The notes under the pieces are model-generated. The model was not told the origin of the DNA and ran no database searches. It worked only from the letters and a program-made list of their open reading frames with translations. Positions 17,965 through 37,143 of a DNA stretch of 49,183 nucleotides are shown here, in pieces (within the stretch, counting starts at the first letter, position 1; each line of letters starts with the position of its first letter). Source of the stretch: Candidatus Agathobaculum merdipullorum (GTDB lineage Bacteria; Bacillota; Clostridia; Oscillospirales; Butyricicoccaceae); assembly GCA_019115185.1 (NCBI GenBank), contig DXDZ01000022.1, positions 1 to 49,183 on the forward strand, read 5' to 3'. The position numbers and the translations under genes are program-made.

Positions 17965-17995
17965 AAAAAAGCTGCCCAGGTGGGGCAGCTTTTTT
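17965..17995. terminator. Bidirectional terminator
   Basis: AAAAAAGCTGCCCaggtgGGGCAGCTTTTTT. Confidence 0.8.
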
Positions 17996-18927
17996 CAGGC
18001 GAGTCCGATGAGCGTGCATACGCCATGCACTGCCAGACAGAGCGCAAGGCCGAATGCAGTCGGCAGCGCGACGGCGGCAAGCGTCCAGCGGACGCTGCGC
18101 GTTTCCTTCCAGATGGTCAGGCAGGTGGTCGAGCACGGCCAGTGCGCCACGGTGAACACCAGTGTGCACAGCGCGGTGCAAATCGTCCAGTCGTTTGCCA
18201 GCAGCAGCGTGCGGAAGGCCGTAAGGTCGGTGACATCCGTGATGGAACCGGTGGCGAGATAGCCCATGACGATCAGCGGCATCACCAGTTCGTTTGCCGG
18301 AAAGGCGAGGAGAAAGGCGAGCAGGATCACGCCGTCCAGCCCGAACAGCCGCCCCGCGGGGTCGAGAAAGGCAGTCAGGTGCGAGAAAACCGACACACCG
18401 CCGACGTCGAGGTTGGCCAGCAGCCAGATGATCGCGCCCGCTGGCGCGGCTACCGCTGCTGCGCGTCCGAGGACGAACAGCGTCCGGTCGAACACGCTGC
18501 GCACGATCACCTGCCCTACCTGCGGCGCGCGGTAAGGCGGTAACTCGAGCGTAAACGAGGATGGAACGCCTTTCAGCACGGTAGCCGACAGCAGGCGCGA
18601 GGCCGCAAGGGTGAGGACGACGCTGCCCGCGATCACAGCGGTGAGCAGCAGCGCGCCACCCGCTGCGCTGTCCGTGAAAAACACGGCGCACAGGAAGATC
18701 AGCAGCGGGAAGCGTCCGTTGCAGGGGGCAAACGTGTTGGTCAGGATGGCGATCAAGCGCTCGCGCGGCGAGTCGATGATGCGGCAGCCGGTCACGCCGC
18801 AGGCGTTGCATCCGAAGCCCATGCACATGCTTGGGGAAAAGATGGATGCGCGCCGTCTGGAGACGCCGTCACGGTGGGAAACCGCTTTGACGAATGGCGG
18901 CTTGGAACGACGCGGAAAATAATTCAT
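17995..18927 (-). pseudogene. feoB: C-terminal half of FeoB (authentic FeoB sequence from about 18827 downstream; first ~35 codons come from island DNA)
   Basis: ...MCMGFGCNACGVTGCRIIDSPRERLIAILTNTFAPCNGRFPLLIF...LPPYRAPQVGQVIVRSVFDRTLFVLGRA...ANELVMPLIVMGYL: FeoB gate/core region without its G domain, which lies colinearly at 35632-36801. Confidence 0.88.
18800..18850. repeat. Left attachment-site junction (B' arm - core CA - P arm)
   Basis: Plus strand GGCGTTGCATCCGAAGCCCATGCA-CA-TGCTTGGGGAAAAGATGGATGCG; core 18826-18827, element-side arm 18828-18850. Confidence 0.8.
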
Positions 18928-18944
18928 AAATATGGCAGGAAAGA

Positions 18945-18973
18945 TTGAAGTTTTGGGTGTGCGGGACTATAAT
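18945..18973 (+). promoter_or_regulatory. Promoter of SLH surface protein gene
   Basis: TTGAAG - 17 nt (ttttgggtgtgcgggac) - TATAAT. Confidence 0.65.
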
Positions 18974-19070
18974 AAAGACAAATATTGCAAGCAGCTCCTA
19001 AACACGCAGACAAGGGGCTGATTCACTTTGGATAACCGGACTGCACAACAAAAAAGGGAGGAATGCCAGT

Positions 19071-22000
19071 ATGAAAAGAAAGGGTTTGGCCATGCTGCTG
19101 ACACTGGCCATGCTGCTGGGGATGCTGCCAACCGCAGCGCTGGCGGCAGGACCAGAAGATCAATGGGAGATCCAACCGGAGCAGACGGTGGAAGTGGAGA
19201 CGGTCGCCGTCGATACATCGGACGTTGACCTGCCGGACAACGACGAGCTGTTCACAGAGTATGTGCAGCAGCTGCTGTACCCGGAGTACGGTGGTGCATC
19301 GCTGTTTGGAAACTACGGTGAGCAAGTGCTGTCCGAGTCACAGCAGGCAGTCTATGAGAAACTGAAAAGTGAAATCGAAAGGGTTGCTAAAAACGGCGGC
19401 TCGACACAGTTTTATACAGGGCAAGATCAATATATCACTTTAACATGGGATACGAGCGAAACAGAGGCAGATAAGCTAACATCAGAATTATCAATCCATG
19501 TTGGTAAGATTTTGGACTGCTTGATGATTGATTGTCCATATGAGCTATACTGGTATGATAAAACGAGTGGCGCTGGTTTTCATTATAACTATATGAAGAA
19601 TATAGAAGGTAATGGAAAAACGGCATCGGCTAAAATTGGTAATTTTCGATTTGCCGTGGCGCAGGATTATCAGGATACCGGTAATCAATATAGCGTGAGC
19701 AGTGACAAAATTGATACGGTAACGGCTGCAATCGCAACAGCAGACGAGATTGTTGCGAATAACAAAGGCAAATCCGACTACGAAAAGCTGGAGGCTTACA
19801 AAAATGAAATTTGCAAGTTGACTGAGTATAATCATACAGCCGCTGATGATGATAGCACACCATACGGCGACCCGTGGCAGCTGATCTATGTGTTTGACGA
19901 CGACCCTGGCACTATGGTCGTTTGTGAGGGCTATTCCAAGGCGTTTCAGTATCTGTGCGATCAGTCGCAATTCACGAATGCAACTTGTTACACGGTTGAT
20001 GGCACAATGAGCGGTGGTACAGGTGAAGGCGGCCATATGTGGAACATCGTCAAGCTGGACGGAAACAACTATCTGGTCGATGTGACCAACAGCGATGCAG
20101 GCACGGTTGGTGCAGACGGTGGGCTGTTCCTTGATGCACCTCAACAAGGCGGCAGCATGGAAACTGGTTATACCTTCACTGCGGGTGGCAAAAGCATTCA
20201 ATATACTTATGATGAGGATAGCAAGAGTCTGTATGGCGAAAGCATTCTTGAGCTGTCGGAGACGGGTTATCAGCAGCAGACATCACTCTCCGGCACGGTG
20301 ACGATTGAGGGCGAGGCGAAGATCGGCGTAGAATTGATGGCGAAAACGGATGGTATGCCCGAAGATGCGGTGCCAAGTTATCAGTGGTATCGAGACGACA
20401 CGAAGATTGATGGCGCGACTGAACAGACTTACACCCCCGTTGCGGCGGATGCAGGCAAAACTCTTAAAGTTGAGGTCATGGCGGAAAACTATTCCGGCAG
20501 TGTTTTTAGCGATCCGACCACTGCCGTAGAGAAAAAGGATGCGCCAGAAGCTCCGGCAGAGTTCTCTGCGACAGAGATTACAGAAACATCTATTACTGTT
20601 ACGCCAAATGATGCTTGGGAGTACCGTTTGGGGACAGATGGTGCTTGGCAAAAATCCAATACTTTTTCCAATTTAACTGCCAAGACGGAATATCAGATTT
20701 ATGTCCGTATAGCGGAAACAGAGGATACCAAGGCGTCTGAGGCTTCCCAGCCGCTGTCGGTTACCACTAAGACGGCGAAAACGGTAACGGGCCTTGAAAT
20801 CACAGCTCCACCAACCAAGATAGAATATATCGCAGGCGAGAGCTTTGATCCGACCGGTATGGTGGTCAAGGCAACCTATGATGACGGCACGACCAATGAG
20901 AATTTTACGGGTTACACCGTTGTAAACGGTGACAACCTGCAAAAAGGCACCATATCGATCACTATTCAGGCGGACAGTGCATCGGTAGAGGTAGCAATCA
21001 CGGTGAAGGGCGTTTTAACAGAAAACGACTTTACCTATATGGTCCCCGCAGATCTGACCTATGATGGACAGCCCAAACAGGCGCAAGTACAGGAGAAAAG
21101 CGAGATTACCGGTATTGGTGCAATCACGGTCAAGTATAATGGCAGTGAAACCGCGCCCACGGACGCAGGCACGTATACGGTGACCTTTGATGTAGCAGAG
21201 GGCGCAGACTATGCCGCGGCAACCGGACTGTCCGCAGGCTCGTTCACCATTGCCAAGGCCACGCCGACCATTACCGCGAAGGACTTGTCGGTTATGATAA
21301 ACCAATCGACTGCATTGGATGCGTCGATTGATCCGGTTGGTTTAACGTTATCTTATGAAAGTAAGGATACCGGCATTGCCACAGTCAACCAAGACGGCAA
21401 TGTAACCGGTAAGGCGGTTGGCAGCACCACCATTACGGTTTCCTGCGAGGGTGACAACAACTACAATGCCACAGAGAAAACCGTGCAGGTGACGGTGACG
21501 GATAAGACACCGATTGAAGTGACGTTTACTGCTCAGAACGAAAGCAAGCAGTACACCGGGGTCGGTTATAAACTGGGTGAACAGTTCAACGAGGCGACGG
21601 TGGCCGATGGCAAAACCGCAAAATACCGTTACAACGATCAGGAGTATGATACGCTGGCCGAGCTGCCTGCGGTAACGACTGCTGGCGTTTATACCGTCAC
21701 AGCGTTCTACTCGGATGAAACCTATTACGGCGAACAGTCGGCTACCTTTACCATCACGAAAGCAGATCAGGCCAAGCTGACGATCAGCAGCGCGAATACA
21801 GTCACCTTTGGTCAAACGCTCACATTGAGCGCCGAGGGTGGCTCGGGCACCGGCGCGGTCATTTATACCATCACGCCCGATACCGGCAGTGCAATTGTCA
21901 GCGGCAATGTGCTGACCCCGACCAAGGCGGGTACCGTGACGGTTACCGCCACCAAGGCTGGGGATGACAACTATAACGAAACGACTGCTGCGCAGACAGT

Positions 22001-24020
22001 CACCATCAGCAAGGCGGATGCGACGGAAGTTGTAAAAACCGCTTCCGGTACGGTAGCAGTCGGTATCGTTGGTTCGGTCACGCTGCCCGCCGTGCCGGAC
22101 GGCGCAGCCTATGGTCAGCCGACTACCGAAGCGGATGCCGTCACGATATTGAAGTTGGAAGGCAACAAGCTGACTTACACTGGCGACAGCAATGTGAAAG
22201 ACGGTTCAGTGTATGTGGTTACCATTCCGGTTAGCAGCGGTGATAATTATAACGCCTATACCATCACCGTGACGCTGACCGGCAGCAATAAGATCATGCC
22301 GACTCTGACGGTCAATCCGATCAACGTTACCTATACCGGTAAGGATGTGCCTGCGTCGGCAATCGTTGGCACGGCCAAGGATGGCGATAAGACGGTATCC
22401 GGCACATGGAGCTGGGGTACCGGTAAATCCGTCCCGAAGAACGTGGCAGACAGCGGCTCGTATGAAGTATGCTTCATGCCGGACGATAAAGCGTATCTTT
22501 CCGGCACGACAACCGTGCAGGTGACCATTGCCAAGGCCACACCGACCGGCGCGCCCAAGTACACGTCGATCACCTCCAGCGGAAAAACGCTGGCTGATGC
22601 CAGCCTGACCACGACCGGTGGCACGTTCAGCGTGTCCGGTACGGTCGCATGGGAGCAGGCGACAACCACGGAAGTGACGGCAAACACTTCTTACAAGTGG
22701 GTATTTACACCCAGCGATACCGCAAACTATAACACCCTGAGCGGCTCGATCACGCTGTGGGAGCGCTCGACGGACAGCGGTTCCAGCACGGTTTCGCAGC
22801 CCTCGACCAGCGGCGGCACTTCTACCGTCATCATGGATGTGGATTCGTATTTGTCCGGCTCGACGGCCAGCGTTACGATTTCCACCTCTACCATGAACAC
22901 CGCGGTGAACCGAGTGCTCAACGCCGCCGATAGGAACGACACGGACCCGGTTGTCGTGATCAGCGTGGATACGTCCAGCCGTGCGGACAGCGTGAAAGTC
23001 ACGTTGCCGGTATCTTCGCTGGAAAAGCTCAGTGAGTACGCCTATGCAACGCTAACGATTGATTCGGATGTTGCCGAGGTGACGCTTGACAGCGACGCGA
23101 TTGATGCAGTGGCTTCGCAGGCGGGCAGCATGATTACACTGAATGTTGCAGCTGTGGACACCAGTGAGCTGACCAGCCGTCAAAGACAGGTTGTGGGCAG
23201 CGCGCCGGTATTTGATCTGTCCTTCAAGAGCGGCAGCACAACTATTTCCGATTTTGATGGCGGTTATGTGACGGTCACGCTGCCGTATACGCTTAAGTCC
23301 GGTCAGACTGCGGACGGCATTGTCGTTTGGTATATGGACAACAGCGGCAACCTGACCGCTTGCGATACGTCCTATAATACCAGCCGCCGTAAGGTGACGT
23401 TTACCACCACGCACTTTTCCAAGTATGTCATCGGCTATGAAGAGCAGGAACAGCAGCCGATCTGGAGCAACCGTTACTCGGATGTGTACAGCGGCGCATG
23501 GTATTACGATGCGGTGCAGTTCGTCACGGATAAGGGCCTGATGAACGGCACGACGACCACGCGCTTTGCACCAGACGAGACGACTACCCGCGCGATGATC
23601 GTTACGATCCTGTGGCGGCAGGCTGGCAGCCCGTCGAGCGGCAGCGGGACGCGATTCAATGATGTAGACCCATCCATGTGGTATGGTAGCGCCGTGCGCT
23701 GGGCAGCGGAAAACAATATCGTCACCGGCTACGGCGACGGTCTGTTCGGTCCGAAGGATAGGATTACCCGCGAGCAGATGGCGGCCATCCTGTATCGCTA
23801 TGCGCAGTATAAGGGCTATTCGGTCGGCACGACCGGCAGTCTGGGCGGCTTTGCGGATGCAAACCGCATCAGCGATTACGCAACCGCGGCATTCTATTGG
23901 ATCTGCGGTCGCGGCATTATGGAAGGAACTACGGCCACTACGCTTGGTCCGGCGGAGTATTCCACCCGCGCGCAGGTCGCAACCATCCTGATGCGCTTCT
24001 GCAACGAGTACGATCTGTAA
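19071..24020 (+). CDS. Large secreted surface protein: transglutaminase-like domain, Ig-like/MBG repeats, three C-terminal SLH domains
   Basis: Signal peptide MKRKGLAMLLTLAMLLGMLPTAALA; CEGYSKAFQYLCD...GHMWNIVKLDGNNYLVDVTNSD (Cys/His/Asp transglutaminase-like); repeated Ig-like modules; SLH modules YSDVYSGAWYYDAVQFVTDKGLMNGTTTTRFAPDETTTRA etc. Confidence 0.9.
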   Translation: MKRKGLAMLLTLAMLLGMLPTAALAAGPEDQWEIQPEQTVEVETVAVDTSDVDLPDNDELFTEYVQQLLYPEYGGASLFGNYGEQVLSESQQAVYEKLKSEIERVAKNGGSTQFYTGQDQYITLTWDTSETEADKLTSELSIHVGKILDCLMIDCPYELYWYDKTSGAGFHYNYMKNIEGNGKTASAKIGNFRFAVAQDYQDTGNQYSVSSDKIDTVTAAIATADEIVANNKGKSDYEKLEAYKNEICKLTEYNHTAADDDSTPYGDPWQLIYVFDDDPGTMVVCEGYSKAFQYLCDQSQFTNATCYTVDGTMSGGTGEGGHMWNIVKLDGNNYLVDVTNSDAGTVGADGGLFLDAPQQGGSMETGYTFTAGGKSIQYTYDEDSKSLYGESILELSETGYQQQTSLSGTVTIEGEAKIGVELMAKTDGMPEDAVPSYQWYRDDTKIDGATEQTYTPVAADAGKTLKVEVMAENYSGSVFSDPTTAVEKKDAPEAPAEFSATEITETSITVTPNDAWEYRLGTDGAWQKSNTFSNLTAKTEYQIYVRIAETEDTKASEASQPLSVTTKTAKTVTGLEITAPPTKIEYIAGESFDPTGMVVKATYDDGTTNENFTGYTVVNGDNLQKGTISITIQADSASVEVAITVKGVLTENDFTYMVPADLTYDGQPKQAQVQEKSEITGIGAITVKYNGSETAPTDAGTYTVTFDVAEGADYAAATGLSAGSFTIAKATPTITAKDLSVMINQSTALDASIDPVGLTLSYESKDTGIATVNQDGNVTGKAVGSTTITVSCEGDNNYNATEKTVQVTVTDKTPIEVTFTAQNESKQYTGVGYKLGEQFNEATVADGKTAKYRYNDQEYDTLAELPAVTTAGVYTVTAFYSDETYYGEQSATFTITKADQAKLTISSANTVTFGQTLTLSAEGGSGTGAVIYTITPDTGSAIVSGNVLTPTKAGTVTVTATKAGDDNYNETTAAQTVTISKADATEVVKTASGTVAVGIVGSVTLPAVPDGAAYGQPTTEADAVTILKLEGNKLTYTGDSNVKDGSVYVVTIPVSSGDNYNAYTITVTLTGSNKIMPTLTVNPINVTYTGKDVPASAIVGTAKDGDKTVSGTWSWGTGKSVPKNVADSGSYEVCFMPDDKAYLSGTTTVQVTIAKATPTGAPKYTSITSSGKTLADASLTTTGGTFSVSGTVAWEQATTTEVTANTSYKWVFTPSDTANYNTLSGSITLWERSTDSGSSTVSQPSTSGGTSTVIMDVDSYLSGSTASVTISTSTMNTAVNRVLNAADRNDTDPVVVISVDTSSRADSVKVTLPVSSLEKLSEYAYATLTIDSDVAEVTLDSDAIDAVASQAGSMITLNVAAVDTSELTSRQRQVVGSAPVFDLSFKSGSTTISDFDGGYVTVTLPYTLKSGQTADGIVVWYMDNSGNLTACDTSYNTSRRKVTFTTTHFSKYVIGYEEQEQQPIWSNRYSDVYSGAWYYDAVQFVTDKGLMNGTTTTRFAPDETTTRAMIVTILWRQAGSPSSGSGTRFNDVDPSMWYGSAVRWAAENNIVTGYGDGLFGPKDRITREQMAAILYRYAQYKGYSVGTTGSLGGFADANRISDYATAAFYWICGRGIMEGTTATTLGPAEYSTRAQVATILMRFCNEYDL

Positions 24021-24075
24021 AAGCGAAATATGCATACTGCTTTTTATACTTATGTGATAAGCAGTCCACACTGAC

Positions 24076-24115
24076 AAAAAAACAGGCATCCACAAACTGT
24101 GGATGCCTGTTTTTT
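24076..24115. terminator. Intrinsic (bidirectional) terminator
   Basis: AAAAAAACAGGCATCCACAaacTGTGGATGCCTGTTTTTTC. Confidence 0.85.
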
Positions 24116-24170
24116 CATAAGTAAGATATCGAAGCTGGGGAAAATCCGTTATTGGGTTTTGTTGACACAC

Positions 24171-25945
24171 TCAATACTTGTCATAATACATATCAGACGG
24201 TTCAGACGGTGTTGCGGGTGTTACCGGTGCATAATCAGGAGTTTCTTGGATCTGATAGCCTGTGCTTGCATTTGCAATTTTGAATCTGCCGACCAATGTT
24301 TTAAGCATGCTGGCCTGACCGGACAGCTCCTCGCTTGCTGCTGCACTTTCCTCTGCCGTCGCAGAGTTGTTCTGCACTACGCTGGAAACCTGATCCAGTC
24401 CCTGTGCAATCTGGTCGGTTGCCTGCGCTTGTTCTGCAGAAGCCGTCGCAATTCGCTTAATAGATGCCACTACCTGATCCGCAGCCTCTACGGTTTCATC
24501 CAAAACCTTTGCTGCATCCGTTGCCAATGCACCGCCACGCTCCACGGCAGAGATAGAATTTTTAATCAGCTCCTGCGTATTCTGAGAGGCCTCCGCCGAT
24601 TTGCCTGCAAGGCTTCTTACTTCATCGGCTACAACAGCAAATCCCTTTCCAGCCGCTCCTGCGCGGGCGGCTTCCACCGCTGCATTCAAAGCAAGAATAT
24701 TGGTCTGGAACGCAATATCATCAATGGTTTTGATAATTCCCTGAATTTGATGCGAGGTCTGCTTGATCTCATCCATTGCCGTCATGAGTTCTTGCATTTT
24801 TGCTTGCTTTCATTGACTTTGGTGCCGGTAAGCATGGTTAAATTGTTGGCAGAATCCGTATCTTTCGCATTCTGATTGATTCTCATGCTGATTTCCTGCA
24901 CGGTTGCCGAAAGTTCCTCCACAGCGCTTGCCTGCTCCGTCGCACCTTGGCTCAGCGCCTGTGCGCCATTGGATACCTGATCTGCGCCCGAAGCAACCTG
25001 ATTGGAAGCAAGATCAATTTCCCGGAATGCATCGCTCAGAGATGTGCTGATTTTCTTCAGAGAAGTTTCAATTGCAGCCAAATCACCGATGTATGCAATA
25101 TCCATTTTGATATCCAAATCCCCTTGCGCTATTTGCAGCAATTTATTATGAATATCCTCGATGAATTCTTTCAAATGATCGCGCATCTGATGTACAGAAG
25201 AAACGAGCATTCCCAATTCCGAAGTATCTTCCTGCAGTTTGCCGCCGATCGACAGATTGCCCTTGGAAAATTCCAGCATTTCTTCCTGTATGATTTTAAG
25301 AGGACGGATTACTTTTTTCCTCGTGAACATAGTGCTGAAGAGTTGGAATACAATAATCAAGCAAACAATGATGATGACTACAATTTGCATAATGGACACA
25401 AGTGTTCGCTGTTGCTCGATTTCAGACGCAAGACGTGCCTGAAATGTCTCTACAAATTCATCCTGAAGAGATTGAATTCTGCTCAAATCCGAGCTGTAGT
25501 CCTCACCGAATACATATTCCAGCGCAGAGTCAATGTCTCCGACCATTGCCGAACTCATAGCGCTTTCTTCCAGCGGCACCAAAGTATTGGAGATCTGCGA
25601 CATCTCGGTTATGAGAGCCTTTTCCTCGTCCGTAATACCTACCTGCTCCATTTTGCTGTAGCCGGTTTCACGGTTTTGCAAATTATTTACTTCATTCTGG
25701 TAGTTATCGTGATAGATTGCTTCACCGGTAGCAGCACAGGCTCTTGCCTGCTCCGTTAAGTACCCGGAGGCATCCAAGAATTGTTGCGCCGCTGCTGTCA
25801 GTTCTTCTCCATTGCTATACATTTCCATCGCGCGATTGTTCATAGATGCCGATAATAAAAAAGAGATTGTCAGCAGGACAACCAGTGCAATAGTTCCCAA
25901 ATTTAACGCTGTGAGTAATGTTGATTGTTTGACTGCCTTTTTCAT
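24171..25945 (-). pseudogene. Methyl-accepting chemotaxis protein, single frameshift near 24797-24801
   Basis: ORF 24782-25969 (start MKKAVKQSTLL at 25945) ends ...[10 protein letters not shown] while ORF 24171-24797 continues [47 protein letters not shown]; the frames join at an A5 run (plus-strand T5 24797-24801). Confidence 0.85.
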
Positions 25946-25946
25946 A

Positions 25947-26189
25947 TTATTTAGCCCCCTTGGATTCAAATTTTAAAGCGGGATTTGCGTATTTCATATT
26001 CGCTTTCCTTCCCCCTCCTTTGATCTGACCCAGTAAAGAGGCGTTTTCAATGGCAATCATTGAAAATCCCCTTGTATTTTCAACGCGCAAGTTGATATAC
26101 GAAAAAGCAGAGTTTGTCTCTGCCTGAGAAAGTTTAAACCGCTGAAGCGCATTGCCTGGACTTTCTACATCGTTTTGCACAAATCTCAT
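25947..26189 (-). CDS. Small 80-aa protein of unknown function, operonic with MCP
   Basis: MRFVQNDVESPGNALQRFKLSQAETNSAFSYINLRVENTRGFSMIAIENASLLGQIKGGGRKANMKYANPALKFESKGAK; stop lies 1 nt before the MCP ATG. Confidence 0.5.
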   Translation of the reverse strand: MRFVQNDVESPGNALQRFKLSQAETNSAFSYINLRVENTRGFSMIAIENASLLGQIKGGGRKANMKYANPALKFESKGAK

Positions 26190-26376
26190 GCTATTAGTAT
26201 AAACCATCTTGTTCAAAAAGGACAATGGGTTTTTGACCAAATTTGTATCTAATGGGAGTACAATATGCAAGCCTTTACGGGCGAATTTGGAAAAGAATTG
26301 GAAGAAAAAGGTATTTACGAGATACTTTGAGAAAGGGAGGCATAGAATTCTATCAGAGTAGAAAGGAGACGGGTGC

Positions 26377-26490
26377 ATGAACCACACTAAGGCAAATGCG
26401 TGTTGGGTACAGCGCCGCGCCCTGCTCGAGCTGCTCGAGAACGTTATCGCAGCGCAGTTCGAGGCAGAAACGGTCGGGACGCCGGCATAG
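26377..26490 (+). CDS. Small 37-aa ORF immediately upstream of serine recombinase
   Basis: MNHTKANACWVQRRALLELLENVIAAQFEAETVGTPA with SD gaaaggag; below ORF-track cutoff. Confidence 0.5.
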   Translation: MNHTKANACWVQRRALLELLENVIAAQFEAETVGTPA

Positions 26491-26538
26491 GGCATTAGGA
26501 TCGCATGCAGGCGGAGAGTAGAAAGGAGGGAATACGCC

Positions 26539-28161
26539 ATGCGCGAAGTATCGGCCGCCTGCAGGGCGGTCTTGTATCTGCGGCTGAGCCGCGACGATGA
26601 CAACCCCGGGGAAAGCGAAAGCATCCAGAACCAGCGCAGCATGTTAAAGGCGTATGCAGAGCAGGAAGGGTTTTCTGTTGTCGGGGAGTACGTGGATGAT
26701 GGGTGGTCGGGCACCAGCTTTGACCGTCCGCGCTTTCAGGCCATGCTCCGTGATATGGAACAGCACCGGTTTGAGGTTGTACTGGTCAAGGACCTGTCGC
26801 GGCTGGGACGCGATTATATCCAGACTGGGCGGTATCTGGAGCTGGTGTTCCCGGAGCACGGTGTGCGGCTGATTGCGGTAGGGGACGGGATCGACACCGC
26901 GCGGGCGGATACGGACCTTGCACCGTTTCGCAACGTCATCAACGAAATGTATGCCCGCGATACCAGCCGCAAGATTCGCGGTGCGCTGCATGCTAAAATG
27001 CAGGCAGGCAAGTTTATCGGCAATTTTGCGCCATACGGGTATCAAAAAGACCCCAAAGACAAGAATCATCTGATACCAGACGAGCGGGCTGCGACCGTCG
27101 TGCGGCGGATCTTTGTTTGGGCGGCAGCGGGTAAGCGGTCTGCGGAGATCGCGCGGATGCTGAACGAGCGCGACGAGGTGCCGCCGGCTGTCTATCGCAC
27201 TTTGGCGCATCCGGGGCTCAACCCGGACCATTACTCCAAACGAAAGGCGTGGACCTCGGTGGGTGTCAGCCGTATGCTGCGAGATGTGGTCTATCTGGGT
27301 CATATCGCACAGGGGAAGACCGACAAAATCAGCTTCAAAAGCAAAAAGACCCGCGAAAGGCGGACGGATGAGTGGATCGTTGTCCCAAATCAGCACGAGC
27401 CGCTGGTTTCCAAACAGACATTTGCTGCGGTGCAGCGCCAGCGGTCTGCCCGCCGTTGTGACCGGAAAGGGGCGTTTTCCAATCTGTTTGCGGGGCTTGC
27501 CTTCTGCTTGGACTGCGGCAAGGCTATGTCCACGGTCGGCACGCGCAAAAAAGGCTCGGCGGCTAATCTGGCGTGCGGTGCGTACAAACTCCGGGGAGCA
27601 TCCGCCTGTTCCAATCATTTTATCTCGTATGAATCGCTTTTCCGCTGCGTATTGGAGGCGGTGCGGCGATATGTCTGCCTGTCTGAGGATGAGTGCAACG
27701 TATTGTTTGAGCGGCTGAACCGCCGTTTGCGATTGGACGAGCGGGGACAGGAAGCGGGGCGCGAGAGAGAACGGATGGCACGGGAGCTGGAGCGGGTTCA
27801 GCGTCTGGTTGCGCAGCTTTATGAAGATCGCACGGCGGGCAGGATTGGCGAGACGAACTTTTATCCGCTGCTCGAACGGTATGAGAGCAAGACGGCTGCG
27901 CTGGAGCAGCAGATCGACACGTTGCAGCCGGATAGCGGTGCGGAAAATTTGCAGCGGCTGCAGGAACGCTTGTGGGCAATCATTCGCCGCTATACGGATG
28001 TGGAGGAATTGACGCCGTCTCTGCTGTTTGAGCTGATCGAGCGGATTGAGATCGGGCAGGGTACATACGAAAAAACAGAGCAAGGCAGGGTCAAGCGGCA
28101 GAAGATCGTTATTCATTTTCGTTTTCTGCCCAAACCCTGTGAAATCGACTGGATAGAATAA
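26539..28161 (+). CDS. Large serine recombinase (resolvase + recombinase + zinc ribbon)
   Basis: AVLYLRLSRDDDNPGESESIQNQRSMLKAYAEQEGF...VKDLSRLGRDYIQTG...; zinc ribbon CLDCGKAM...C...C; long coiled-coil C-terminus. Confidence 0.96.
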   Translation: MREVSAACRAVLYLRLSRDDDNPGESESIQNQRSMLKAYAEQEGFSVVGEYVDDGWSGTSFDRPRFQAMLRDMEQHRFEVVLVKDLSRLGRDYIQTGRYLELVFPEHGVRLIAVGDGIDTARADTDLAPFRNVINEMYARDTSRKIRGALHAKMQAGKFIGNFAPYGYQKDPKDKNHLIPDERAATVVRRIFVWAAAGKRSAEIARMLNERDEVPPAVYRTLAHPGLNPDHYSKRKAWTSVGVSRMLRDVVYLGHIAQGKTDKISFKSKKTRERRTDEWIVVPNQHEPLVSKQTFAAVQRQRSARRCDRKGAFSNLFAGLAFCLDCGKAMSTVGTRKKGSAANLACGAYKLRGASACSNHFISYESLFRCVLEAVRRYVCLSEDECNVLFERLNRRLRLDERGQEAGRERERMARELERVQRLVAQLYEDRTAGRIGETNFYPLLERYESKTAALEQQIDTLQPDSGAENLQRLQERLWAIIRRYTDVEELTPSLLFELIERIEIGQGTYEKTEQGRVKRQKIVIHFRFLPKPCEIDWIE

Positions 28162-28193
28162 ACGGGACGTACTTGGATCGTACGTCCCGTTTA
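28160..28193. terminator. Terminator between recombinase and convergent deacetylase gene
   Basis: AAACGGGACGTAC-ttggatc-GTACGTCCCGTTT. Confidence 0.8.
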
Positions 28194-28211
28194 TTTCTAC
28201 CCATTGTGGGG

Positions 28212-29966
28212 TTAGGTCAGTGCGGTGAAGCTCGTCAGGATTTTCGCGCCCTCCGCGCGGGTGGCGCTGCCCTGCGGGGCGAGCGTGGTCGCGGTGCGGC
28301 CGCTCAGCAGTCCGGACGCGACCGCCCACTGCATGGCTTCCTGCGCATAGACGCTGATTTGCGCCGCATCCGTATAAGCAGACAGGTCGGCGTGTGTGCT
28401 GGTGTCCATGCCGAGGTGATTTGCCAGTCGATAGAGCAGCACAGCGACCTGTTCGCGGGTGACCGTGTCGTTCGGCGCGAAGGTTTCGTCGGTGTAGCCG
28501 GTCACGAGGCCGTTTGCCCGTGCCCAGTAAACGGGCAACGCATAATAGGCGTTCGCGTCCACATCCGCATAGGGATAGCCGAGGTTGTCGCCCACTTCAG
28601 GCTTGCCAGAAAGGTTATAGAGCACCGTGGCCAGCATCGCGCGCGTCATGGTTGTGTCGGGCGAGAAGGTATACGCGCTCGTGCCGTTCATCAGCCCCTG
28701 CTCGACAATCTCACCCACGCTGTCATAATACCAGCTGTCCACCGGTACATCGGTGAACAGACGGCCGTATTCAGTCAGTGTGCAGGTGACGACCGGGCTG
28801 TCCAGATGGCCGGACAGGACGGCGATGCACTTGGTCGTGTTGGTTTCTGGCGTAAACGCACCGGTGTAAAGCGTGCTTTGTGCGGTCGGTGTGGAGCCGT
28901 CGGTCGTGTAATAGATAGACGCGCCCGCGGTAGTGCACGAAAGCGTCAGCATACCGTTTTCATACGAAACGGTTGGTGCGGCTGTGGGCGGTACGCCTGC
29001 AACCTTTTTGGTGGTGACAGGCGTGCGCGTACCGTATTTGTCGATGCCGACGACCGTGAACGTTGTATCCTTGGTAATCGTAATCGGGCCGGTGTATTTG
29101 GTGCTGCCGAGGTGCGGGGTTGCGTTGCTGGTCGTGTAATACAGGGTCAGCCCCTTGTCCGCAGTCGAGAATGTGACCGAAACGCCGTTGTCACCCGGCG
29201 TGGAGGTGATGGTCGGCGCAGTATATGCGGGCAGGTTGGTTCCCTTGTTCGGGGCGCTGGTGTAGACGACGCCGTTTTGCGGGGTGATGCCGCGGCGGCG
29301 CAGCAGCTCGGCTACGGTGACAAATTCATACCCCTGTGCTTTGAGCGTATCAATCGCGCGCAGCGCACCCTGTACGCTGGTCTGGTAGATATCGTGCGTC
29401 AGCACGATCGCGCCGTCATGCGCGCCTTTGATGATGTTGTTGTAGACTGTGTCCGCATTGCGGTATTTCCAGTCAAGCGGGTCCACACTCCACAGGATGA
29501 TGGGCGCGGCAATCGTGCTCTTGACCGTGCCGCCTACCGCGCCGCCGGGGGTGCGCACCATGTCGGTGTACGAGCCGCCCATGCGATCAAACAGCAGGCT
29601 TTCCACGCGGCTGACTTCGCTCGAGATCGTGCTCGCGCCGTAGCTGTCGAACGGGATGAGGTGCTGGTAAGTATGGTTGGCGAGCTGGTGACCCTCGTCC
29701 CGCATCCGCGTGAGAATGTCTTTGTGATTGACAATGCCGTGCGAGCCGTTGGTGCCGTTCATAAAGAAGGTGGCTTTCGCACCGCGGGCCTTCAGTCCAT
29801 CCAGCAGGGTCGAGGTATAGGCCGAGGGACCGTCGTCAAAGGTGAAGGCGATCAGTTTTGCGCTGGAAGTTGCCGCAACGGGCGTCTCCTCGGCTGCCGC
29901 AGCGAGCGGCAGGCAGGGGATAAGCAGGGCAAGCATCAGCAATAGGGCAGTAAGTCTTTTTTTCAT
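28212..29966 (-). CDS. Secreted polysaccharide deacetylase with chitobiase-like C-terminal repeats and SLH domains
   Basis: MKKRLTALLLMLALLIPCLPLAAAAEETP...LIAFTFDDGPSAYTSTLLDGLKARGAKATFFMNG (NodB TFDDGP motif); SLH modules at C-terminus. Confidence 0.93.
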   Translation of the reverse strand: MKKRLTALLLMLALLIPCLPLAAAAEETPVAATSSAKLIAFTFDDGPSAYTSTLLDGLKARGAKATFFMNGTNGSHGIVNHKDILTRMRDEGHQLANHTYQHLIPFDSYGASTISSEVSRVESLLFDRMGGSYTDMVRTPGGAVGGTVKSTIAAPIILWSVDPLDWKYRNADTVYNNIIKGAHDGAIVLTHDIYQTSVQGALRAIDTLKAQGYEFVTVAELLRRRGITPQNGVVYTSAPNKGTNLPAYTAPTITSTPGDNGVSVTFSTADKGLTLYYTTSNATPHLGSTKYTGPITITKDTTFTVVGIDKYGTRTPVTTKKVAGVPPTAAPTVSYENGMLTLSCTTAGASIYYTTDGSTPTAQSTLYTGAFTPETNTTKCIAVLSGHLDSPVVTCTLTEYGRLFTDVPVDSWYYDSVGEIVEQGLMNGTSAYTFSPDTTMTRAMLATVLYNLSGKPEVGDNLGYPYADVDANAYYALPVYWARANGLVTGYTDETFAPNDTVTREQVAVLLYRLANHLGMDTSTHADLSAYTDAAQISVYAQEAMQWAVASGLLSGRTATTLAPQGSATRAEGAKILTSFTALT

Positions 29967-30102
29967 AACGGCCTCCTTGATAGGGAAAACGTGGGATAAT
30001 AAGATACCCACATTGTAACCGTTTTCGCGCGCGCCGTCAATCATTCGATAAGAAACATAAAAAGGGCCGCTGTCCTGGAGGACAGCGGTCCGTGTGATAG
30101 GA

Positions 30103-31464
30103 TTACAGGAAGATATACTTGAGAATGAACAGCACCGCCAGCACATACATGAGCGGGGTGACCTTTTTGCCCTTGCCTGCGGCGAGGTTGAGCAGGACAT
30201 AGGAGATAACGCCCATCGAAATGCCTTCGGAAATGCTGTAAAACAGCGGCATGGAAATGATGGCGAGGTAAGCTGGGATGGCATCGGTCAGGTTGTCCAG
30301 ATCGAAGCGAATCTCGGAAACCGTGCCGACCATCAGGAAGCCGACCATAATCAGCGCCGGTGCAGTAGCGAAGGAGGGGATCGCGGTGAAGATCGGCGCA
30401 AACAGCGTGGAGATCAGGAACAGCACGCCGGTGACCAGTGCGGTCAGACCGGTACGGCCGCCAACCGCCACGCCGGAGGCGGACTCGACGAAGGTCGTGG
30501 TGGTCGAGGTGCCGAGGATGGCGCCCGCCGAAGTTGCGATTGCGTCGGACAGCAGCGCGGGCTTGATGCCCGGCAGCTTGCCGTCCTTGTCGAGCATGTT
30601 TGCCTTGGTGGCAACGCCGATCAGCGTGCCGAGCGTGTCAAAGATATCAACAAACAGGAACAAGAAGATCACCACGATGAAGTTGATGATGCCGACCGCG
30701 CCAAAATCCACGTCGAAGCATTGGCCGAAGGTCAGGCCCAGCTTGGTAAAGTCGGTCATGCCGAAGGCCGGGAACAGGGTGTAGAAGCCCGCTTCCACAT
30801 CCGGCACATAAAGGCCGGTCAGCTGGCAGAGCATGCCGATGATCCAAGTGAGCAAAATGCCGAACAGGATCGCGCCCTTGACGCGGTGGATATACAGCAC
30901 CGCCGTGATGAACAGGCCGACCAGTGCAAGCAGCGCACAGATGCCCGAGGTGTGGAAATTGTCGGTAAAGCTCGTGATGGTGACGAGCGTGGAGGAGTCC
31001 ACGGACAGCCCGGCGTTCTGCAAGCCGATGAAAGCGATGAACAGGCCGATGCCGACCGAAACGCCGCGCTTGAGCGTCAGCGGGATGGCGTTGAAGATCG
31101 CTTCGCGCACATTGGTCAGCGACAGCACGATAAAGACCAGGCCCTCGATAAAGACCGCGAGCAGCGCGACCTGCCAGCTGTACCCGTAACCGGCGACGAC
31201 GGTGTATGCCATAAAGGCGTTCAGGCCCATGCCGGCGGACAGCGCAAATGGCAGGTTTGCCATAAACGCCATGCAGACCGTGCCGAGGCAGGAGGCAAGC
31301 GCAGTCGCCAGCAGGACGGCGGTGGGATCCATGCCGGTCGAGCCGAGGACGCTCGGGTTGACCGCAAGGATGTATGCCATGGTCATGAAGGTGGTGATAC
31401 CCGCCATGACCTCGGTGCGGACGGTGGTGTGGTTGTCCGAAAGTTTGAACATCTTTTCAAACAT
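30103..31464 (-). CDS. NCS2 family purine (adenine/guanine/hypoxanthine-type) permease
   Basis: MFEKMFKLSDNHTTVRTEVMAGITTFMTMAYILAVNPSVLGSTGMD...; AzgA/PbuG-like signature. Confidence 0.93.
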   Translation of the reverse strand: MFEKMFKLSDNHTTVRTEVMAGITTFMTMAYILAVNPSVLGSTGMDPTAVLLATALASCLGTVCMAFMANLPFALSAGMGLNAFMAYTVVAGYGYSWQVALLAVFIEGLVFIVLSLTNVREAIFNAIPLTLKRGVSVGIGLFIAFIGLQNAGLSVDSSTLVTITSFTDNFHTSGICALLALVGLFITAVLYIHRVKGAILFGILLTWIIGMLCQLTGLYVPDVEAGFYTLFPAFGMTDFTKLGLTFGQCFDVDFGAVGIINFIVVIFLFLFVDIFDTLGTLIGVATKANMLDKDGKLPGIKPALLSDAIATSAGAILGTSTTTTFVESASGVAVGGRTGLTALVTGVLFLISTLFAPIFTAIPSFATAPALIMVGFLMVGTVSEIRFDLDNLTDAIPAYLAIISMPLFYSISEGISMGVISYVLLNLAAGKGKKVTPLMYVLAVLFILKYIFL

Positions 31465-31505
31465 GTGTGTTTTCAGCCCTTTTTTCCTTTCTCTTTTCCC
31501 CTTGC

Positions 31506-32030
31506 TTACTTTCCGTCATAGGATACGACCGTGGCGAGCGGGTAGCCTTGCAGACGGTCGCGGCCGTGCAGCCCCTTCAGTTCGAGCAGGCAGACGATCT
31601 TGACCACGGTTGCGCCGAGCGACTCAAGCAGCTTGGCCGCCGCTTCCAGCGTGCCGCCGGTGGCGATCAGGTCGTCGATCAGCACGACGCGCATGCCCGG
31701 CTGAATGTCATCGCGGTGTACCTCGATCGAGGCGGTGCCGTACTCCAGCTCGTAAGACATCCCGGCGGTCGCGCGCGGCAGCTTGCCGGCCTTGCGGATC
31801 GGGATGAACGGCTTGTGCAGCTTGTAGGCGATCGGCATACCGAACAGGAACCCGCGCGATTCCAGTCCCGCAATCACATCAAATGTTTCCCCCTCCAGCA
31901 GCGCGGCCATTTCGTCCACCGACAGCTGTAAGCCATCCGCATTGCCGATGACCGTGGTGATGTCCCGGAAGATCACGCCACGTTCGGGAAAATCCGGGAT
32001 GCTGGTGATATATGGTTCGATTTTGCTCAT
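31506..32030 (-). CDS. apt: Adenine phosphoribosyltransferase
   Basis: MSKIEPYITSIPDFPERGVIFRDITTVIGN...VVLIDDLIATGGTLEAAAKLLE (PRPP-binding motif). Confidence 0.95.
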   Translation of the reverse strand: MSKIEPYITSIPDFPERGVIFRDITTVIGNADGLQLSVDEMAALLEGETFDVIAGLESRGFLFGMPIAYKLHKPFIPIRKAGKLPRATAGMSYELEYGTASIEVHRDDIQPGMRVVLIDDLIATGGTLEAAAKLLESLGATVVKIVCLLELKGLHGRDRLQGYPLATVVSYDGK

Positions 32031-32283
32031 GCTTCCTCCTCCATGCAGTGTTTGTTCCGTATTCTGTGTGTGGGCTTGTGCCGCCCGTAGGCGACAAATC
32101 ATACACAATCATTTTAAGCAAAACCGGCGCGCATTACAAGAGTTTTATTCCATGAAATCCGGGGAGCGAAACGGTTTTTTGCTTTTTTCGCATCTTGGAA
32201 GCGGTTTCCAGACGATTTGCGGAAAAATGTACGGAAAAATATCGGCGGCGCCTTTTCATCAAGACGCCGCCGATGGGGGAGAT

Positions 32284-33447
32284 TCAGGACGATTCTTTTT
32301 GCCGGCCGTGTGTGTACAGGAAAATTGCGAGCAACACGGTCACTGGGACGCTCAGCACGATGCCGAAGCTGCCGGCCAGCCCCTGCATGATTGCAATGCC
32401 GATGTTGTTGGAATTGATGATTTGCAGATAGGGCAGATCATAGGCATAGTCGAGTACCAGCATGCTGATGCTGCCGCCCGCAAAAGCGAGGATGAGCGTA
32501 TTGGAGTCCGTGCCCATCATGTCGCGGCCGACGCGCATACCCGCGCGGAACAGCTCGCGGCGGGAGATATCCGGCGTCTGGGCGTGGATCTCGCTGATGG
32601 CACTGGCGATCGACATGGCCACATCCATTGTTGCGCCCAGACTGGAGATCAGCAGGCCGGAAAACAGCAGGCCGCCGACCTGAATGCCGTTCGTGTTCCA
32701 CAGCGTAAGCAGGCTTTCGATATCGCTGACGTTCCAACCCGAGATACCCGAGGCAGCGCTGAACGCAGACGCGGCCAGACCTGCGATGCACACGCCCGCA
32801 ACCGTACCGCCGGTTGCGACCAGTGTTTTCCTCGTCGGGCCGCCGATCAGGTACATGGTGACGATCGTCGTGATCGTGCAGATGAACACTGACACCCAGA
32901 ACGGGGAGTGGTCGCGGTAGACAAGCGGCAGATATACGAACAGGATGCAGAAAAAGGTGAACACCAGACCGAGCGCACCCTTGACGCCCTGTTTGCCGCC
33001 CACAAGGCACAGCACCAGCAGGTACAGCCCCGCAAACACATAGATAACGGTTTCGCGGTCCTGCGCGTAGACGCTTGCAACGGTCGAGTCGCCCGAAACG
33101 CTCTGCATGACGATGACCTTCATGCCCACAGTGCAGCCTGCGCCGAACAGATAGCCGGAGGAACTGGTCATTTCCAGCGTTTGCCCGGCACGTGCACCGG
33201 TTTTCATCTGCACGCGCACCAGCTGTTCGCCTACGCGGCTGCCGTCGTACTGCAAATTGTCCCGTATGATCTCGGTGACAACGCCCTTTTCAAAGGTCTG
33301 ACCCTCGCGGGAGACGAGTCCGATTTTATCCACCGCATTGATGCGCACAACGAATACGAAGAACAAAAGCAGCAGCAAAAGCGGCGGCGCCCAGCGGAGC
33401 AGCAGGCGGCGGACGGGGTGGTTTTGGTCGGTATGCAAATCAATCAC
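32284..33447 (-). CDS. YibE/F family membrane protein
   Basis: 387 aa; ...DVAMSIASAISEIHAQTPDISRRELFRAGMRVGRDMMGTDSNTLILAFAGG typical of YibE/F-like proteins. Confidence 0.88.
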   Translation of the reverse strand: MIDLHTDQNHPVRRLLLRWAPPLLLLLLFFVFVVRINAVDKIGLVSREGQTFEKGVVTEIIRDNLQYDGSRVGEQLVRVQMKTGARAGQTLEMTSSSGYLFGAGCTVGMKVIVMQSVSGDSTVASVYAQDRETVIYVFAGLYLLVLCLVGGKQGVKGALGLVFTFFCILFVYLPLVYRDHSPFWVSVFICTITTIVTMYLIGGPTRKTLVATGGTVAGVCIAGLAASAFSAASGISGWNVSDIESLLTLWNTNGIQVGGLLFSGLLISSLGATMDVAMSIASAISEIHAQTPDISRRELFRAGMRVGRDMMGTDSNTLILAFAGGSISMLVLDYAYDLPYLQIINSNNIGIAIMQGLAGSFGIVLSVPVTVLLAIFLYTHGRQKESS

Positions 33448-33591
33448 TCGCTTTACGGAAATGGATCATGTCTTGCGCATAAGGCAAAGACAAAAAACAG
33501 GGGAAACCGGAAAAATTCTCCGCGGATGCGCTGTCATCCGCAGAGAATCAGCCGGAAGAACGGAGAAAAAGGAAGAGAGAAAAAGAAGGAA

Positions 33592-35508
33592 TTACTTGGT
33601 GGTGATGGTCAGCGTGCCGTTTGATACCGTGCTCTGAATGCCCAGCGTGGACAGAAGGCTGGCCGGGACATAATAGTTAGCGTTCACGTTGGCGGCGGCC
33701 GTGGTCACGGTCTTGCCGTTTACCTGCATGGTCAGGGTTTGCTTGACACCGGTCGTCTCGGCAGCAGGGGCAAGGGCCGCGGCATCGTAGCGCTTGCCGG
33801 TAATGACGATCACGCCGTTTTTCCACTCGACGTTAAACTGGGCAGCCGTGCCGTTTACCGCGGTAGCAAGGTCGCGCAGACGGTAGTAGGTTTCACCGCC
33901 GACCGAAGCGGTCGCAACCTGCTTGGCAGTGCCGTCCACGGTGATCGCTGCGGCCTGCTCGTCGGTTTTCTTGATGGTGAAGGTGCTGTCGATCTTTTCC
34001 ACCTTGCCTGCATCGGTGATCTGGTAGGTGTCGATCGAGAAGGTATCGGCCGTCAGGTTGATGACCGAGTAGCTCGGCAGCCAGTTCTGGCTGCGCTCGG
34101 CAACATAATCCTGCTGAGAAGCGATCAGCTCATAGAACTTGGAGCCCGAAGCGGAGTTTGCGGTCATGTACAGGATGCCCTGCGGGTTGGTGACCGTGCT
34201 CCCTTGCACGTCCTCGATGGTGTAGCACTCGTTGTCGGCTTGGAAGGCGTCGTGCTTGGCCTGACCGGCTTCATCCTCGGGGTAGAGCGGGATCTGCTCG
34301 TCGGTCTGGGTGTTGTACGCATTGTCCCAGTCGTAGTCCGAACCGTCCTCGTTCAGGCGGAACTCGTAGGTGCCGTGGGTCTGGCCGTCGCCGTAGAGCA
34401 GCTTGGTACGGCTGTAGGTGTGGTCATGGCCCTGCAGGACAACGTCGATGTCGTACTGGTCAAAGATCGGAGTGAGCTGGGTGCGCAGAATCATACCGTC
34501 GGTGTCCGAGTGGTCAAGGCCCGAGCCATAGATGTCCTGATGGATGGTCACGATGCGGAACTTAGCGTCCGGATCGGATGCAACCGCTTCCTTGATAGCC
34601 TTTTCATGCTCGGCAACATTGTAGTTGTTGGTGTTGAGCACGATGAACAGGCCGGAACCATAGGAATAGTAGTAGTCGCCGCCCGCTTCGGTTTCGCCGT
34701 AGCCGGTCTGGTTCGGGTTGTAGAAGTGGTTCTGGTAGTCCGCGTTGAGCGAATCATGGTTGCCGATCGTGGTAGCAACCGGCAGGCTGGTGAGTGCGCT
34801 GGCGGAAAGATAGCCCGCATACTCCTCTTCCTTGGGCTTGCCGGTCTTGTTGACCTGATCGCCTGCGGAGATTACGAAATCCAGCCCCGGATTCTGCTGA
34901 AGCGCAATGTCCAGCGTGCGGTCCCAGGCAAAGCTGTCGTTGCGCGCGGCGGTGTTGGCAGCGCCGCTGTCCGCGGTCAGCGCTTCGCCGTTCTGCGACT
35001 GCCCTTTGGAAGCGCCGATCTGCGGGTCGCCGACGTACAGAATCTGTGCGCTTTCAAAGTCGCCGGTCTTGTAGGTCTTGGCTTCGGTCTGCACGCCGTT
35101 CTTTTCCACCGTGTAGTAGTAGGTGGTGTTGGCCTTCAGGCCGGTCACGGTAACATGGTTGTAGGAATAGGCTGTGCCGTCGGTCAGGCTGGTGTCAACA
35201 GCGGCAGAGGTGCCGGTAAACTCGGCAAGGTTATTCTTGTCCGTGCCGAAATGTACGACCGGCGTTGCGCTCTTGCCGGTCTCGTCCTTGCTGTACCAAG
35301 CGAAGTTCAGCTGGGTCTCGTCCGCGCCGGGCGTCATGGAAACCTGTGTGTAGTCGGTGGCAATGGTGTTCCACGCTTCGGTCCATGCTTGCCAGCCGGC
35401 AGCGCCGGTGACGCTGGAATCGTTATAGTCCGCTGCGGAAGCGAACGGGTAGGCGCTCAGCAGCAATGTGCTGGTCAGGATGCCTGCCAATACTCTTTTT
35501 GTCTGCAT
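33592..35508 (-). CDS. Secreted purple-acid-phosphatase-like metallophosphoesterase with C-terminal copper-amine-oxidase-N-like domain
   Basis: Signal peptide MQTKRVLAGILTSTLLLSAYPFASA; ILYVGDPQIGAS, ISAGDQVN, IGNHDS, GHDHTYSRT metallophosphoesterase motifs. Confidence 0.9.
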   Translation of the reverse strand: MQTKRVLAGILTSTLLLSAYPFASAADYNDSSVTGAAGWQAWTEAWNTIATDYTQVSMTPGADETQLNFAWYSKDETGKSATPVVHFGTDKNNLAEFTGTSAAVDTSLTDGTAYSYNHVTVTGLKANTTYYYTVEKNGVQTEAKTYKTGDFESAQILYVGDPQIGASKGQSQNGEALTADSGAANTAARNDSFAWDRTLDIALQQNPGLDFVISAGDQVNKTGKPKEEEYAGYLSASALTSLPVATTIGNHDSLNADYQNHFYNPNQTGYGETEAGGDYYYSYGSGLFIVLNTNNYNVAEHEKAIKEAVASDPDAKFRIVTIHQDIYGSGLDHSDTDGMILRTQLTPIFDQYDIDVVLQGHDHTYSRTKLLYGDGQTHGTYEFRLNEDGSDYDWDNAYNTQTDEQIPLYPEDEAGQAKHDAFQADNECYTIEDVQGSTVTNPQGILYMTANSASGSKFYELIASQQDYVAERSQNWLPSYSVINLTADTFSIDTYQITDAGKVEKIDSTFTIKKTDEQAAAITVDGTAKQVATASVGGETYYRLRDLATAVNGTAAQFNVEWKNGVIVITGKRYDAAALAPAAETTGVKQTLTMQVNGKTVTTAAANVNANYYVPASLLSTLGIQSTVSNGTLTITTK

Positions 35509-35631
35509 TCGTGATTACTCCCTTTTTGCATGTAATTGCAGGGTGTGAATTGATGTTCCCTGTGTCCAAAAGCGAGTATAGCACTGGAAAATATCCATCT
35601 CAACCACTCTTGCCAAAGATTAGCGTACATT

Positions 35632-36801
35632 TTAACTGGCCTTAACGAAGGAGACCTCTGCCGCCTTTCGCATCCATTTTTTACCCAAGCACATGGTTAG
35701 GCTTTGCTTGCCGCAGGCGTGCGCCCGGCGGAAGGCGTAGTCGAGCTGAAAAGCGACGCGCGGCAGGTAGCCTGCGTCCTCGAGCAGGGTGAACAGCGGA
35801 AAAAAGATGGCCATGGGCGGCAGCATGACCGAGATGACCGTGGCCAGCACGCGCCACAGGCCGTCAACCAGCAGCGAAACGAAAAACGGCGGCAGACCGA
35901 GTGCGGAAAGGGCGGCGGCAAATGGTGCGCTCAGACCGAGCAGATGTGTGCCCAGCCATTCGCTCGGGACGTTGGCGCCGAACAGGGTGATGTAAAACAC
36001 GGCGGCGAGCAGCAGCAGCATGAGTGGCAGCCCGAACCGACGGCTGAGCAGGATGCGGTCGATGCGGCGGTCGCGCGCATCCGCGTCTGCGGGGACCTGC
36101 ACGCAGGTCAGGGCGATCTCCTCGGCGCGCAGCGCAGCCGCGGCAGTGAACAGATCATCCAGCTGCTGGGCATCCATGCCGTCCGGCGGCTGCTGGGAGA
36201 GTGCGGCGAGCGCGTCCGCGCGTGCAAGGCCGGAGGCGCGCACCGCGTCCTCGATTTCTGCGGGGTAGCGGATGGTGGTAGGGTGCGGGACGGTTTCGCC
36301 GTCCAATACGCGGCATACGGCCTGCATCAGCGTGGGCAGCCCGCGCCCGCGCCGCGCCGTGCACGGCACGACCGGCACGCCCAGCTCGCGCTCAAGCGCG
36401 GGTATGTTGATGCGGATGCGCTTTTTGCGCGCCTCGTCCATCAGATTCAGGCAAACAATCACGTTGGGCAGGACTTCCAGCACCTGCAAAACAAGAATCA
36501 GATTGCGCTCGAGGCAGGTCGCGTCCGCCACCAGAATGGCAGCATCCGCTTCGCCACCGGTGAGAAAATCCCGCGCGACGCGCTCCTCCGCTGAGCGGGG
36601 GCGCAGCGAATAGGTGCCCGGCAGATCGACCAGCGTCATTTCGCGGCCACCACAGTCCATTGTGCCGCGCGCGCCGGATACGGTCTTGCCGCTCCAGTTG
36701 CCGGTGTGCTGGCGCGCGCCGGTCAGCGCGTTAAAGACGGTGGATTTGCCGACGTTGGGGTTGCCCATCAGTGCCACGACCGGAGTGCGCTCCGCCCCCA
36801 T
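35632..36801 (-). pseudogene. feoB: N-terminal half of FeoB (GTPase domain and first TM segments), truncated at island junction
   Basis: MGAERTPVVALMGNPNVGKSTVFNALTGARQHTGNWSGKTV...VDLPGTYSL; FeoB-like sequence ends at ...HACGKQSLTMC, followed by 18 island-encoded codons (LGKKWMRKAAEVSFVKAS*). Confidence 0.9.
35669..35720. repeat. Right attachment-site junction (P' arm - core CA - B arm)
   Basis: Plus strand CGCATCCATTTTTTACCCAAGCA-CA-TGGTTAGGCTTTGCTTGCCGCAGGC; element-side arm 35669-35691, core 35692-35693. Confidence 0.8.
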
Positions 36802-37046: not shown

Positions 37047-37143
37047 GTAATCATTCCCAGTATGCAAGATTTTCGCCGCACTTCCCGCGGGGAAGGCGGT
37101 CATTGCATCCTATGCGGCGTCATAACCTCGCGTGCGCGGCAGC

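Follow-up and report, generated by a model that had tools for sequence, protein, structure and literature searches.

Why should a gene for a ferrous-iron transporter be kept in two pieces, with almost 17 kb of other DNA between them? The question is raised by feoB on contig DXDZ01000022.1 of Candidatus Agathobaculum merdipullorum (GCA_019115185.1), where the whole stretch of 49,183 nt that we analysed is called the window below. A preliminary description of the window had reported an island of about 16.87 kb that splits feoB, the two parts of which would join in frame into a protein of about 646 aa with no residue lost or duplicated, and had compared it to gene interruptions of the skin or comK type. 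The island and the clean join were both borne out. Our best explanation, to which we give a probability of about 0.72, is that the feoB island is a sporulation gene-intervening element of the skin/gin type, whose excision in the mother cell would make feoB whole again.

The island occupies positions 18823-35688 (16,866 bp) and separates codon 371 of feoB from codon 372. The interrupted feoAB operon lies on the minus strand and begins with feoA (36801..37046; open reading frame (ORF) MDHETFSPLSDLPEG...), followed by the feoB 5' part (35689..36801, minus strand, codons 1-371), which covers the G domain and the first membrane part (TIGR00437 1-364, PF02421) and is an open frame, 89-92% identical, in the nearest relatives. 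The feoB 3' part (17995..18822, minus strand; TIGR00437 360-594) is colinear with it and holds codons 372-646 (275 codons) and the TGA stop, with 75-95% identity in most relatives. Both island ends bear the 6-bp core ATGTGC, which leaves an ambiguity of six bases in the boundary, so that the limits 18826-35693 given in the preliminary description and ours denote the same element. When the flanks were joined, they formed an ORF of 646 aa with 0 stops, and exact excision of the element would restore this frame. The joined FeoB aligned with the intact FeoB of four relatives (G015, G021, G017 and G010) at 75-83% identity with 0 gap openings. The preliminary description had proposed to look for a second intact feoB elsewhere; further feoB paralogues are present in the genome, on C39 (a 744-aa frame) and C46/C41.

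Both ends of the island carry the attachment sites of a site-specific recombinase. In attL (35669..35711, minus strand), a feoB half-site is followed by the ATGTGC core and the island arm TTGGGTAAAAAATGGATGCG; in attR (18808..18850, minus strand), the island arm CGCATCCATCTTTTCCCCAAGC is followed by the core and the other feoB half-site. The arms are inverted relative to each other (18830-18850 and 35669-35689), and the 21-bp terminal inverted-repeat pattern that they share matched at these two ends only in the window, against 0.01 matches expected. When the two island arms were put together as attP, they formed a palindrome with 19-21 of 25 positions paired and centred on TG (in the islands of this type with both ends known), while the feoB site alone, attB, is an imperfect dyad with 11-14 of 25 pairs. 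Judged from the sequence, a palindromic attP, an imperfect attB and a short core that is identical in both and not itself a palindrome is the geometry of large serine recombinases (LSRs).

The island encodes such an enzyme, which we call LSR-1 (26539..28161, plus strand, 540 aa). It has an N-terminal resolvase domain followed by recombinase, zinc ribbon and DUF4368 regions (PF00239, PF07508, PF13408, PF14287) and matches the PHROG 95 integrase over its length; its motif YLRLS is conserved and Ser17 was invariant across 15 sequences. The nearest sequences with a solved structure are those of TnpX and SPbeta SprA (YokA) (PDB 2mhc, 9dxh), which are distant relatives with different att sites. Orthologues of LSR-1 (66-88% identity) were found at the same feoB site in the other genomes with this type of island, and in several islands the orthologue adjoins the feoB 3' half. 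Relatives at 63-64% identity were seen at G082:C33:175464-177065, in another genus, and at G002:C4:230875-232497; a search for phage or plasmid carriers of LSR-1 returned only relatives less than 60% identical. Directly upstream of the recombinase gene there is an ORF of 37 aa (26377..26490, plus strand), a candidate directionality factor gene, which was found in 14 genomes with its core LLELLENVIAAQFEAE conserved and a pooled pN/pS of 0.086, and which had no Pfam or PHROG match.

We then searched for each feoB half separately in 25 genomes of Agathobaculum, a genus of gut bacteria. These are related species rather than independent trials, and mostly drafts, so that the motif counts given below are not probabilities. 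The same codon junction was interrupted in 17 of the 22 genomes with a readable feoB junction: 14 have junctions of the LSR-1 type, three carry another LSR, and the comparison with intact relatives suggested in the preliminary description identified the remaining five as uninterrupted at the junction codon. Three genomes are outside this count, G019 and G020, in which the orthologous feoB 3' half was not found, and G002, which has a diverged feoB copy. Where both halves are on the same contig, the gaps measured 3.6, 8.2, 9.4, 10.3, 14.0, 16.9, 26.5, 26.6, 31.0 and 34.6 kb; in the further split genomes, the halves lie on separate contigs whose ends bear the same att sequences. LSR-1 and its att arms are conserved, while the islands that they belong to vary from 8 to 35 kb in size, and also in cargo. 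Misassembly was rejected as an explanation, as independent assemblies show the same split, among them the single-contig G011, the two-contig G013 and two isolates, A. desmolans ATCC 43058 (G022) and Agathobaculum sp. Marseille-P7918 (G018). A second attP-like palindrome (G018:C17:157577-157595) was noticed inside the 34.6-kb island of the latter and is perhaps a relic of a tandem insertion.

The site is used beyond this recombinase lineage and beyond the genus. In G009 (L065), G011 (L069-L070) and G024 (L067-L068), the same feoB codon is occupied by an unrelated LSR element, the attP arm of which is different; in G011 and G024 this element is a prophage, with genes for a capsid protein and an amidase. 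Other genera were compared in a named GTDB collection. LSRs sharing 45-55% identity with LSR-1 were seen at the same codon, between feoB parts or beside them, in Dielma fastidiosa (5.6 kb), Aristotella (5.4 kb) and a Clostridia metagenome-assembled genome (MAG; 2.2 kb); in Angelakisella, Intestinimonas and a Eubacteriales MAG, the LSR adjoins a single feoB part. For LSRs with 38% identity or less, no feoB part was present in the loci examined. This spread over the genus and into other genera, the mid-island position of the recombinase gene with a small ORF ahead of it, and a feoB that looks sporulation-specific go beyond the preliminary description.

A gene inactivated by an insertion is expected to decay, and we asked whether feoB does. 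Neither half has a stop codon in any of the split species, while simulated neutral change at the same distances gave an expected 3-8 stops per feoB copy. The ratio of nonsynonymous to synonymous rates (omega) was 0.17 for the 5' part and 0.14 for the 3' part in the split species (0.25 and 0.20 in the intact species); the lack of stops and the dN/dS values led us to reject a decaying pseudogene. The recombinase itself is constrained (omega 0.115), and its divergence follows that of feoB (rho 0.84 for dN and 0.73 for dS). The deep split in the LSR tree is also the deep split in the feoB tree, with a few exchanges within clades, and the island genes apt and NCS2 have host-like dS values (syntenic cargo of G000, G005, G006 and G018). 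Selection probably sees the joined feoB, and the joined gene is probably used, because purifying selection keeps both halves open and the 3' half is without its own translation start: a start led by a Shine-Dalgarno sequence was missing from the 3' half in 16 of 17 genomes, whereas 13 of 15 ordinary genes of the window, taken as a control, have one. In the 12 codons that open the 3' half, the synonymous-site rate was low in one clade (0.10 versus 0.42), but the intact species were also somewhat low there (0.29 versus 0.48), and we dropped this as proof.

When would the joined gene be needed? The region upstream of feoA is poorly conserved except for GCATAGSATG, which was present in all 16 Agathobaculum genomes read. 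It is part of a sigma-K-type promoter motif of feoAB, AC-N17-CATAGGATG (37106..37135, minus strand; motif comparison). The strict form AC-N16/17-CATAnnnT preceded feoA in 14 of 16 genomes, compared with 0 of 220 other genes and 0.5% of random windows. Classic sigma-K genes include dpaA, and in this genus an AC-N16/17-CATAGGATG-like arrangement was found at 8 of 9 dpaA loci; at the ninth, the start call is unreliable. Ahead of feoAB of the same subfamily, similar motifs also occur in Dielma and several relatives in the order. In C. difficile, feoA-feoB (CD1518-CD1517) is listed as sigma-K dependent, with expression at 0.05-fold in the mutant (PMC3789822); it may be the orthologue of the Agathobaculum operon.

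The operon of the 37-aa ORF and LSR-1 is preceded by a sigma-E-like -10 element (GCATAGAATT; 26339..26354, plus strand; motif comparison). In 12 of 14 genomes, CATAnnnT was located 34-59 bp ahead of this operon, compared with 7 of 221 other island genes, and the form seen there, GCATARAAT, resembles the -10 (GCATAGATT) of Agathobaculum spoIIID, which is a sigma-E gene. As a control for sigma-E promoters, spoIVA was unusable, as it sits behind another gene. Sporulation genes are widespread in the genus: a sigma-E-like gene was found in 25 of 25 genomes, spoIIID in 23 and genes for small acid-soluble spore proteins (SASPs) in 24.

From these features we infer excision and its timing in the sporulating mother cell, as follows. 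Sigma-E would turn on the operon of the 37-aa ORF and the recombinase in the mother cell; with the 37-aa protein as directionality factor, LSR-1 would recombine attL with attR, and the island would leave as a circle. The exactly rebuilt feoB would later be transcribed as part of feoAB by sigma-K, so that the iron importer would be active solely in the mother cell. As the mother cell dies, the island and its cargo, including what is apparently the sole apt gene, would stay in the germ line. The death of the rearranged mother-cell chromosome would also explain how metabolic cargo is carried and how the gene can remain split over long times with functional halves.

An ordinary LSR island or degenerate prophage, with feoB as its attB, might look much the same if it had been gained and lost repeatedly, leaving feoB inactivated and backed by a paralogue with no programmed excision. 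The other feoB paralogues of the genome, the existence of intact species, the unrelated elements at the same codon, one of them a prophage with a capsid gene, and some exchange of LSRs between species are what such a history would leave behind. It does not account for purifying selection without stops in any carrier, for the co-divergence of island and host or for sporulation-type promoter motifs on both operons, and we regard it as unlikely. The same anatomy would also serve a comK-like reversible switch responding to iron limitation or stress, in which low-level vegetative excision yields a feoB+ subpopulation with no tie to sporulation; occasional restoration would suffice for purifying selection. 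The feoAB promoter is, however, of the sigma-K type common to dpaA, the -10 of the LSR operon is sigma-E-like, and vegetative excision would risk the loss of the apparently sole apt, which makes this switch very unlikely. Of the two analogies drawn in the preliminary description, that to skin stands, with a cognate recombinase, an att pair, intact relatives, selection and promoter motifs in its favour, while that to comK fits less well, the island having no phage genes. Finally, the halves might be translated apart and assemble into a two-subunit FeoB. Both are open and conserved, and the 3' half starts with ATG codons at the core; it nevertheless lacks the Shine-Dalgarno sequence in nearly all genomes, the sequence upstream of it is not conserved, the break falls inside a conserved motif and five species keep feoB in one piece, so that a split protein is hardly credible.

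Several observations weigh against sporulation-linked excision itself. The putative assignments of sigma-K to feoAB and of sigma-E to the LSR operon draw on short motifs, and the -35 region of the LSR operon had no clear match to sigma-E. That the 37-aa ORF may encode a recombination directionality factor is a guess from its position and conservation. The gene is uninterrupted at the junction codon in G008, G010, G015, G017 and G021, and the LSR trees point to some exchange between close species (G023, G016), so that part of the persistence of the island could be due to re-infection. A search for the attP pattern elsewhere in the genus revealed no excised circle, and in viral contigs its single match was a chance one, inside an unrelated phage polymerase-like gene. 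In addition, spoIVA and dpaA were not found in the window's own assembly, which is 90% complete, and sporulation of this species is therefore not established.

We compared the feoB island with the known systems. Sporulation rearrangements are known in genes for regulators, the spore envelope, a protease and dipicolinate synthesis; in the open-access literature we found no published description of an element interrupting feoB. In C. difficile, the skin element has its LSR, CD1231, next to the sigK 3' half, encodes a 72-aa directionality factor, CD1234, under sigma-E control, and leaves the chromosome in the mother cell (PMC5025042). The two elements are alike in that an LSR element exactly splits a mother-cell gene (a probable one in the case of feoB), in the position of the LSR beside the 3' half in several feoB islands, and in a gene for a small protein behind a -10 of the sigma-E type. 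They differ in the target, which is a ferrous-iron transporter and not a sigma factor, in the cargo, which is metabolic and not phage-like, and in the small ORF directly ahead of the LSR gene; for the feoB island, excision is predicted from sequence. In Bacillus cereus ATCC 10987, gerE is split by the gin element, which was described in one strain and has no phage genes and three recombinase genes (PMC5595907). It is likewise a non-prophage intervening element that has a serine recombinase and a small additional factor, for which the feoB island has a candidate, whereas in feoB one LSR lineage and att site extend genus-wide and are related to same-site elements in other orders. Further serine-recombinase elements excised in sporulation are vfbin in spoVFB, SPbeta in spsM and yin in yabG (as cited in PMC10747680; PMC4191935); their targets are different ones, feoB is not among the interrupted genes named in these papers, and at least three genes are split in Agathobaculum.

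Besides feoB, the genes concerned are ssp and dpaA, whose interruption speaks for a sporulation setting. The apparently single alpha/beta SASP gene, ssp, was split at one site by elements of 4-23 kb in G000, G001, G004, G005 and G013 (for instance G000:C70:3495-19782, L369; also L368 and L370-L374) and is intact in other Agathobaculum species. The ssp element encodes an LSR of 557 aa with an ORF of about 62 aa ahead of it, and in several cases carries a mgl/gal operon. Elements of 2.4-6.5 kb with a different serine recombinase interrupt dpaA (spoVFA) at a single site in at least six genomes (G008, G009, G010, G013, G017 and G021); most of these elements (L405-L410) also have a gene for a response-regulator-like protein that somewhat resembles Spo0A. 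It is possible, though we say so tentatively, that separate serine-recombinase elements leave feoB and dpaA, both of mother-cell type, and ssp during spore making, as a multi-locus elimination of DNA. The ssp gene is a forespore gene, and its rearrangement, if real, would therefore need an explanation other than loss with the mother cell. If such a programme exists, excision in the forespore would be inherited or reversed after germination, unlike the known cases, which are limited to the mother cell.

If the proposed excision from feoB is real, iron import by the mother cell would be a step controlled by DNA rearrangement, and feoAB would gain a role in the spore. A domesticated recombinase and its att sites would persist while the metabolic cargo is swapped, since no rearranged genome would outlive the mother cell. 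The islands also provide a natural matched set of LSRs, att sites and candidate directionality proteins.

As had been described before, the window's island has no recognisable phage structural or conjugation genes: none of its proteins was annotated as a phage structural protein (Pfam, PHROG), and there was no relaxase or conjugation gene among its annotated genes. What it carries is metabolic and surface-related. Next to the feoB 5' part there is a gene for a purple acid phosphatase-like metallophosphatase (33592..35508, minus strand; PF00149, PF16656), which is in the same place in G005, G006 and G018. It is followed, on the same strand, by genes for a YibE/F-like membrane protein (32284..33447; PF07907), the adenine phosphoribosyltransferase Apt (31506..32033; NF002636 / TIGR01090), the single apt match in a search of the assembly, an NCS2-type purine permease (30103..31464; PF00860) and a polysaccharide deacetylase with SLH domains (28212..30059; PF01522, PF00395). 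On the other side of the recombinase operon, a methyl-accepting chemotaxis protein is encoded in two overlapping frames (24171..25969, minus strand; PF00015, PF00672); this receptor gene is probably frameshifted in the window, since its homologue in G003 is one frame of 574 aa. The largest gene (19071..24020, plus strand) encodes an SLH/Ig-like surface protein of 1649 aa (PF00395, PF02368, PF07523) with a homologue in G001. The islands of other species hold sugar-uptake and Leloir-type genes or two-component systems instead. Outside the island, beyond the feoB 3' part and about 3 kb away from it, we noticed a gene for a sigma-F-like sporulation sigma factor (14156-14863).

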